A DNA stretch of 15,361 nucleotides from positions 717 through 16,077 of the forward strand of contig JADHYX010000465.1 in NCBI GenBank assembly GCA_027604685.1. Direction: 5' to 3'. Positions within the stretch are counted from its first letter, which is position 1, and each line of letters starts with the position of its first letter. The notes beneath the pieces were generated by a model. It saw only the letters and a list, made by a program, of their open reading frames with translations. It was not told where the DNA came from and did not search any database. Source of the DNA: Lobulomyces angularis. Its lineage: Eukaryota; Chytridiomycota; Chytridiomycetes; Lobulomycetales; Lobulomycetaceae. Positions 2,286 to 11,022 of the stretch are shown here, in pieces. Position numbers and translations under genes: made by a program.

Positions 2286-3174
2286 TCAATTGATTTTTAA
2301 CAATTCAACATCAAAAATCAAATCAGCTTTTGGACTAAAAAATACAACATTTATTTAAATTCAATATTAAACCTTGGCATCTTACGGAATGGCACCAGGA
2401 TAACCTCTCTCCCCATAGGCATAGTCGTAAGTTATATGTAAAGTGGCTATTTGACCTAAAGACATTTGAGGTACACCTTCATCCCAACCTTTTATAACTT
2501 GTCCGACTCCAATTTTGCAATCAAAAGGTTTTCCGCGATCTCTTGAGGAGTCAAATTTAGAACCATCTGATTTAAGCTATAATTTTAGAATTAGAATTTG
2601 TATTTAAATTTGAAAAATTCATTATTAAATTTTAACTTACAGTTCCAGTATCTTGAAATGATTTTATTTTTAGTTTTTTATAAAAAAAAAAATAAATTAA
2701 AATATGTCAAAATTTTTTGTTTTTTATCTTACAATGCTAAATTTTTTTTTATTTAAAAAAAAAAAGAAATTAAAAAAAAAATAAAAAAAAATTGCAGTGA
2801 AAAATATAAACAAGAAAAATCACAAGATTTTCATTTCTTTTCAAACATTCTTACCATAGTAACTTTGTCTCCCTGGAGATTTCAGTCAATTTGAAAAAAA
2901 ATAAAAAACGTTAGATCAGTATTAATTTAAGAATGACAAAAATTTAATCAGAAGAGATTTCCTTGAGAATAAGATGACAGAATACAACTAACAATAAAAA
3001 CGCCAAAAAATACAAACCTTTTTAGGAAAATTAACACCATCTCCAGGTTTAGTGGTAACAACTTCAACTAAAAGAAAATTAAAAAATTATACTTAGTATT
3101 TAGAATAAAAGATGACATTAATATTTATTAAACATAATAAAAAAATAGATTAAAGTTTCAAACCAACCTCCCAT
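2286..3174 (-). CDS. FKBP12-type peptidyl-prolyl cis-trans isomerase
   Basis: Seven coding exons on the minus strand: 3168-3174, 3018-3067, 2855-2872, 2733-2736, 2641-2651, 2386-2576 and 2286-2334, totalling 330 nt and 109 residues. It is a single-domain cytosolic FK506-binding protein that isomerises peptidyl-prolyl bonds. The length matches FKBP12 (about 108). The residues lining the active site are all present: Y27, F38, D39, F48, V57, I58, W61, Y84 and F101. Recognisable motifs are [26 protein letters not shown] and FDVELLK. One residue is inserted relative to human FKBP12 just before SDGSKFDSS. Exon 4 is only 4 nt and exon 5 only 11 nt; both are needed for frame and for the Y27 codon. 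An in-frame TAA lies just upstream of ATG 3174-3172. Introns are 51, 64, 81, 118, 145 and 100 nt, longer than in most neighbours. Confidence 0.93.
2733..2736 (-). other. 4-nt microexon of the FKBP gene
   Basis: On the minus strand the order is TTTAG, then CATT, then GTAAGAT. The four bases supply His26 and the first base of Tyr27 (active site), joining GDKVTM to YTGTL. The preceding exon (18 nt) ends at phase 0 and the following exon (11 nt) starts with two bases of a codon, so skipping this exon shifts the frame. Confidence 0.85.
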
Positions 3175-10170: not shown

Positions 10171-11022
10171 ATGAGTAAAGCAAGTACAATTTTACAAAAA
10201 TTAACGAGTAAAGAAACAAAAGATTATTTCATGAGCACTGTATGAAAAAAACATTAAAAAAAAAAAGGAAAAAATGAAAAAAAAACTAATCTCTATACTC
10301 ATTCTTACTCTATTAAATTTTTTTTTTTTTAATTTTTTTTTTTTAATTTTTTTTTTTAATTAATTTTTTTTTATTCTAGCATTTCTGGGGGCCAGTTGCA
10401 AGTAACTAATTAATACATAATTTTTTTTGTTTAATAATTAAAAAAAATTTTTTTGTTTTAGATTGGTAATTTGATAAAAAAAAAAAATTTCGAAATTAAC
10501 TCTTTATCACTTTAAATGCTGAAAAATTAAAAAAGAAATGCATCCATTAACATCGAATTTTTAATTTTTTATTTAATAGCAAATTTCTTTTTTAATCTTC
10601 TTTTTTTTTTTTTTGCAATTGGAAGGGGACTTCCTTTAGCAGCTATTGGGGATATGAGTAAGTCGCCTGAATTAATAAGTGGAAAAATGACCACTGCTTT
10701 ATCAATTTATTCCATATTATTCATGAGGTAATTGGAAAAAAAATATAAAAATTAAATTTAAAAAAATTAAAAGTTAATATTTTAATGGAGTGCAATTACA
10801 TAACTAAATTTTTTTTTCCTTTTTTTCTGCCTTTTTTTATAGGTTTGCTTGGTGTGTCCAACCTAGAAATTATCTACTGTTAGCCTGCCACACAACTAAT
10901 GAAGCTTGCCAGTTAGTACAAGGTTATAGGTTCATCAAATATTATACTCAGCAGTAAGTAAAAAAAATTTTAATTCTTTTTAAAAAAAATTGTCCCATTT
11001 TAGGAATCCAGAAAAAAAATAA
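10171..11022 (+). CDS. MPC1: mitochondrial pyruvate carrier 1
   Basis: Exons 10171-10239, 10380-10401, 10462-10465, 10626-10727, 10843-10953 and 11004-11022 total 327 nt and 108 residues, against 109 in human MPC1. MPC1 pairs with MPC2 in the inner mitochondrial membrane to import pyruvate. The family's core is complete: [20 protein letters not shown] (residues 19-37 and on), a variable stretch, [45 protein letters not shown]. An N-terminal amphipathic helix precedes it. Exon 3 is just four bases (ATTG) and completes the Asn31 and Trp32 codons of the invariant ANWG; without it the frame is lost. Exon 2 is 22 nt and the last coding exon 19 nt. Introns are 140, 60, 160, 115 and 50 nt with long T runs. 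The partner gene MPC2 is not in this window. Confidence 0.94.
10462..10465 (+). other. 4-nt microexon of MPC1
   Basis: The plus strand reads GTTTTAG, ATTG, GTAATTT. The previous exon ends with one base (A) of a codon and the next begins with G completing another, so the four bases build AAT-TGG (Asn31-Trp32) in the conserved VANWG motif. No other nearby splice choice restores both residues and frame. Confidence 0.87.

Follow-up and report, generated by a model that had tools for sequence, protein, structure and literature searches.

A predicted four-nucleotide exon in MPC1 of the chytrid Lobulomyces angularis and very short exons in other conserved genes

The MPC1 gene and its four-base exon

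The DNA analysed here, referred to as the window, is a stretch of 15,361 nucleotides (positions 717-16077 of contig C455) from the Lobulomyces angularis genome, which is assembled as 20.76 Mb in 533 contigs and has a GC content of 24% in the 196 kb sample that was fetched. The window contains an MPC1 gene on the plus strand and an FKBP gene on the minus strand, each with a predicted internal coding exon of only four nucleotides. The coding exons of MPC1, and the two introns that flank the shortest of them, are listed below.

10171..10239, plus strand: coding exon 1, 69 nt from the ATG, found by the unforced spliced aligner and aligned from human residue 15 on
10380..10401, plus strand: exon 2, 22 nt, encoding HFWGPVA and the first base of Asn31; 0 of 200 shuffles reach its score
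10402..10461, plus strand: intron 2, 60 nt, GTAACT...TTTTAG
10462..10465, plus strand: microexon ATTG, 4 nt, supplying the second and third bases of the Asn31 codon and the first and second of the Trp32 codon
10466..10625, plus strand: intron 3, 160 nt, GTAATT...GGAAG
10626..10727, plus strand: exon 4, 102 nt, from the spliced aligner
10843..10953, plus strand: exon 5, 111 nt, from the spliced aligner
11004..11022, plus strand: last coding exon, ending in the stop codon TAA

The last exon was missed by the aligner, which placed a false 4-nt end exon farther downstream. All five introns (140, 60, 160, 115 and 50 nt) have GT-AG ends, and the four bases lie between canonical splice sites (TTTTAG, ATTG, GTAATT) exactly where the original prediction had put them. 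Exon 2 is a short exon in its own right. Intron 2 has a branch-like TTAAT motif whose A lies 27 nt before the intron end, which is weak evidence, and the acceptor of intron 3 is the first AG past the long T tract; the A at -3 in its GGAAG end is shared with 16 of the 118 acceptors sampled. Minor (U12-type) introns carry the donor motif RTATCCTT and were rejected by inspection of the donors, GTAACT and GTAATT.

With ATTG included, the gene encodes a protein of 108 amino acids that matches human MPC1 with an E value of 3.8e-41, aligns to it without gaps over residues 11-100, and scores 117.9 bits against the Pfam MPC model. When ATTG is left out, the frame is lost and a stop follows after four codons (GPVARDFL-stop). 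The VANWG motif had been described as invariant and is very nearly so, with NWG in 119 and VANWG in 110 of the best 120 of 1233 MPC1 homologs. Spliced alignment to human MPC1 recovered the exon unforced with a score of 334.9, compared to 299.1 when the splice sites of the exon were blanked, and none of 500 runs with shuffled introns reached the real score (best 327.5).

To be counted as a single-intron parse, an intron with any end dinucleotides had to lie inside 10380-10727 and keep the frame to the protein end. VANWGLP was produced by none of the 1841 such parses but by one of the 43 parses in which two GT/GC-AG introns enclose an exon of at most 30 nt, which upholds the claim that the four bases are required for Asn31-Trp32 and for the frame. 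The same enumeration covered other acceptors for exon 4, none of which restored VANWGLP without the microexon.

It is very improbable that one larger intron is removed instead, leaving an MPC1 that lacks or replaces Asn-Trp, with ATTG lying between AG and GT by coincidence. In-frame parses with GT/GC-AG ends do exist (9 of 1841, for example 10402-10579), and a single parse, with AA...AA ends, contains NWG as VASNWGLP with one extra residue. However, all nine GT/GC-AG parses insert or delete residues in the nearly invariant motif, and the three products scored (95.1, 89.6 and 92.5 bits against Pfam MPC) lose 23-28 bits. Seventeen single-intron parses preserve length, HFWG and LPLAAIGDM, and VANWGLP is found in none of them. 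Among 200,000 Markov introns matched in composition, AG-A(T/C)TG-GT occurred by chance in just 147, and in 4 when YAG and GTAR were specified.

Directly upstream of exon 4, the sequence GCAATTGGAAG at 10615-10625 holds a near copy of the missing codons (AATTGG). None of the 1841 single-intron parses can use it for VANWGLP.

Small indels from assembly or sequencing could also create a false need for the exon, and there are many homopolymer runs around MPC1. Against this, proper AG and GT ends enclose the four bases, the same architecture occurs in FKBP and in its paralog on another contig, and the aligner permits no frameshifts yet aligns all 430 residues of beta-tubulin and residues 9-309 of PP2A. 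We regard an error of this kind as exceedingly improbable, and by the available sequence tests ATTG is confirmed as a genuine MPC1 exon.

The genome search returned MPC1 and MPC2 alone and no second copy of MPC1, so conservation of this microexon cannot be compared between copies. No MPC1 named as Clydaea appeared among the best 120 of 1233 matches and the 21 matches of two protein searches, in which many names are shortened or missing. MPC2 (L029, contig C233) has 16- and 19-nt exons that cover the same protein region as the 22- and 4-nt exons of MPC1. Shared intron positions between the two genes were considered and rejected, as positions and phases differ.

Very short exons in FKBP and other conserved genes

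The FKBP gene occupies 2286-3174 on the minus strand and has seven coding exons, as follows.

3168..3174, minus strand: coding exon 1, 7 nt, ATGGGAG, of the same length in the paralog L033
3018..3067, minus strand: exon 2, 50 nt, from the spliced aligner
2855..2872, minus strand: exon 3, 18 nt, from the spliced aligner
2733..2736, minus strand: exon 4, microexon CATT, 4 nt, encoding His and the first base of Tyr in the HYTG motif
2641..2651, minus strand: exon 5, 11 nt, ATACTGGAACT, from the spliced aligner
2386..2576, minus strand: exon 6, 191 nt, from the spliced aligner
2286..2334, minus strand: last coding exon with stop TGA, of which 43 nt were aligned and the last residue and stop were read from the sequence

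A second FKBP gene (L033, contig C290) has the same lengths in all seven aligned exons. The six introns of the two genes show no more similarity than shuffled sequence does (60 shuffles for each intron) and 15 of 43 fourfold sites differ, but CATT is identical; the 4-nt exon has thus outlasted the full divergence of its surroundings. The introns flanking CATT measure 53 and 72 nt in the paralog; those of the window gene measure 118 and 81 nt. The exons of a third FKBP (C516), a more distant one, are ordinary, and an FKBP-like sequence on C47 was not among the modelled loci. The 4-nt exon of MPC1 is independent of that of FKBP, as first proposed.

Other paralog pairs also combine very similar proteins with diverged introns (L035/L036, L057/L058, L063/L064, L061/L062, L065/L066 and L049/L019, besides the window FKBP and L033). 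In the three pairs measured, 35-49% of fourfold sites differ: 88 of 179 for beta-tubulin, where 430 of 430 amino acids are identical, 40 of 85 for 14-3-3 (213 of 215 identical), and the FKBP sites given above (95 of 108 amino acids identical). These housekeeping gene pairs may derive from an old genome duplication or a hybrid origin.

The frequency of microexons, defined here as internal coding exons of about 27 nt or less, was estimated from 36 genes modelled with a home-made spliced aligner, using human proteins as queries. Five of the genes were reached through the finding itself (MPC1, MPC2 and three FKBP) and 31 are other conserved genes. The set of queries was settled before gene structures were known, and the loci were chosen after seeing the hit tables. 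The sample of 31 is small and consists of short, highly conserved genes, six of them second copies of paralog pairs. Actin (one nearly unbroken match of 372 residues), CDK-like and CK2-like matches (30-53% identity) and many others were left out, so the sample may lean towards split genes. The proteasome loci L041-L046 lie outside the 36 genes, and RPS15A had no match.

Introns are present in all 36 genes. Among their 128 internal exons, 23 are of 27 nt or less, 10 of 15 nt or less and 5 of 9 nt or less; the corresponding numbers for the 31 other conserved genes are 13, 5 and 2 of 108 internal exons, or 12 of 27 nt or less if a UBE2N-like exon is discounted. Beyond MPC1 and the two FKBP genes, 12 modelled genes have such exons (11 without the UBE2N-like case, which failed the test below), and the genes concerned are housekeeping genes such as MPC1, FKBP, RAN, ARF1, UBE2D2 and PCNA. 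The PCNA model (contig C75), which includes a 26-nt exon, is identical to the annotated PCNA of Clydaea vesicula (100% over 260 amino acids). The original prediction took two such genes in one window to indicate a lineage-wide ability; in this one species, tiny exons do extend beyond the two genes and are widespread in the genes sampled.

On shuffled introns, 294 of 780 aligner runs yielded at least one tiny exon, and because of this and the false end exon in MPC1, raw calls were rejected and only score-tested internal exons were counted. In the per-exon test, 0 of 200 shuffles reached the real score for 18 of the 23 tiny exons. Weaker passes were the 18-nt exon of FKBP-B (3/200), the 7-nt exon of RPS18 (2/200) and the 12-nt exon of 14-3-3 in L058 (1/200). 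The 16-nt UBE2N-like exon (14/200) and the 12-nt 14-3-3 exon in L057 (15/200, and 31/500 in another run) failed at 5%; both the 20- and the 12-nt exon of 14-3-3 are kept in the two copies despite diverged introns.

Eight ribosomal protein genes (L060, L061, L063-L068) open with an aligned start piece of 2 to 13 nt, and their first intron, at 103-395 nt, exceeds the usual 40-60 nt; the RPS16 start piece in L061 is not ATG and is doubtful. An open reading frame at L024:6712-7626 resembles, by eye, a fungal Zn2Cys6 transcription factor.

Flanking introns and the probable route of splicing

The 164 introns sampled have a median length of 55.5 nt (quartiles 48-78), with 102 of 60 nt or less and 14 of 160 nt or more. 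The introns flanking ATTG had both been counted among the longest in the window. Against this median the 60-nt intron is ordinary, and only the 160-nt intron is long. Eight introns preceding an aligned last exon of less than 12 nt were excluded from the length comparison, leaving 156. Introns adjoining exons of 27 nt or less were longer than the others (medians 71 vs 53 nt, 37 vs 119 introns, P 4e-5), and so were introns 2-3 taken alone (65.5 vs 52 nt, P 8e-4). Other tiny exons also have neighbouring introns of 45-60 nt. The impression that such exons have longer flanking introns is therefore correct as an average tendency, but long introns are not required, as the 53 and 72 nt of the FKBP paralog demonstrate. 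The longer introns could reflect some special requirement.

Splice sites at tiny exons were not detectably stronger by our home-made scores, which averaged 3.25 vs 2.15 for donors (20 sites, P 0.19) and 1.55 vs 1.90 for acceptors (21 sites, P 0.80). This gives no sign of the two spliceosomes once envisaged as assembling around the four bases. The motif YTRAY was weakly enriched 8-45 nt from the intron end (100 of 156 introns vs 77 expected).

Exon definition through strong intronic signals, as proposed for exon 2 of human MPC1, is an unlikely explanation. The longer average length of introns adjoining tiny exons would agree with it, and in human cells 67 nt upstream and 6 nt downstream are reported to suffice (PMC9929638), but the splice sites of tiny exons do not score detectably higher, and the FKBP paralog keeps its exon between introns of just 53 and 72 nt whose similarity to the window copy is at shuffle level.

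A regulated switch is improbable as well. It would have skipping of ATTG destroy the mRNA or protein, with inclusion setting pyruvate uptake. The premature stop on skipping fits such a role, and Trichoderma is described as having a glucose-dependent switch based on a 20-nt microexon (PMC11121469, available text). On the other side, the tiny exons of this chytrid lie in housekeeping genes without an excess of multiples of three, and for the 4-bp exon of human MPC1 the available part of PMC9929638 reports no detectable skipped transcript even with a decay inhibitor. By length modulo three the 23 tiny exons divide 8, 8 and 7, as expected for constitutive exons. A regulated cassette microexon of the neuronal type was rejected on this even split and on the length of four, which is not a multiple of three.

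We consider it highly probable that ATTG is a genuine constitutive exon of MPC1, one of many very short ones; the likely route of its splicing is intron definition. The exon, its frame, its residues and the intron sizes are read from the DNA itself, as are the lack of a detectable gain in splice-site strength and the conservation of the FKBP exon in its paralog; that ATTG enters the mRNA, which of its introns goes first and that splicing works by intron definition are inferred. Intron definition calls for flanking introns that are short and complete. Those beside ATTG are each complete GT-AG introns inside the size range of the genome (60 nt typical, 160 nt in the upper tail), and those of the FKBP paralog measure 53 and 72 nt. 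Each donor would pair with the acceptor of its own intron, one intron after another. Removal of the first would fuse the four bases to the adjoining exon, leaving an ordinary splice site for normal removal of the second and making a cross-exon complex on four bases unnecessary. Under intron definition, splicing efficiency is described as set by intron length and not exon length (PMC8624252, available text), and consecutive removal of the introns on either side of a microexon is described as likely in plants (PMC8831610, available text). Given these two reports, stepwise removal appears to be the most economical reading.

Known microexons and significance

Exon 2 of human MPC1 is a constitutive 4-bp microexon, TACG, that lies between long introns and is explained by exon definition in the available part of PMC9929638. 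It thus occurs in the same gene as the chytrid exon and shares its length, which is not a multiple of three. We take TACG to encode Tyr12 and the first base of Val13, which places it 21 residues upstream of the Asn33-Trp34 that match chytrid Asn31-Trp32. The chytrid residues matching human Tyr12/Val13 fall inside exon 1 of MPC1. Homology of the two exons was rejected on this difference in protein position, and judged from the sequences the shared gene and length are a coincidence rather than the same exon.

In plants, microexons of 1-15 nt number 2,398 in 10 species, and APC11 and VPS55 have exons of 1 nt (PMC8831610, available text). Like the chytrid exons, these coding exons are described as tiny and frequently overlooked in annotation, with consecutive removal of the flanking introns proposed, but they occur in plants and in different genes and positions. 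The 20-nt microexon of Xlr2 in Trichoderma virens, described as the first functional microexon of filamentous fungi in the available part of PMC11121469, resembles ATTG in being fungal and overlooked by annotation, and differs in being glucose-regulated, confined to a single gene and from the Ascomycota. The same text calls knowledge of fungal microexons limited and places experimental tests in Schizosaccharomyces pombe only. That species has short introns and likely uses intron definition, as does this chytrid. Microexon splicing by intron definition in S. pombe was reportedly described by Romfo et al. in 2000. About 45% of its genes have introns, as given in the available part of PMC8624252, compared to 36 of 36 modelled here. 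Among the papers listed by searches of an open full-text library, which subscription papers mostly fall outside, no account of chytrid microexons was seen. The kind of exon is known; within the reach of these searches, this member and the apparent density of such exons are new.

How the spliceosome copes with exons too short to hold binding sites is a standing problem that has been investigated in brain genes, in plants and elsewhere. A chytrid with a small genome and many tiny exons, placed in conserved genes in every phase and often beside introns of 45-75 nt, would allow a direct test of intron definition. Automatic annotation can lose conserved genes, and may have done so with MPC1. The chances appear about even that in this chytrid, and perhaps in the Lobulomycetales as a whole, the spliceosome is largely indifferent to exon size: approximately 1 in 8 internal exons would measure 27 nt or less, the smallest 4 nt, and such exons would occur in essential genes irrespective of phase. 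If true, no other known fungal genome would be as dense in microexons, and this chytrid would offer a natural setting for studying splicing that does not depend on exon size.
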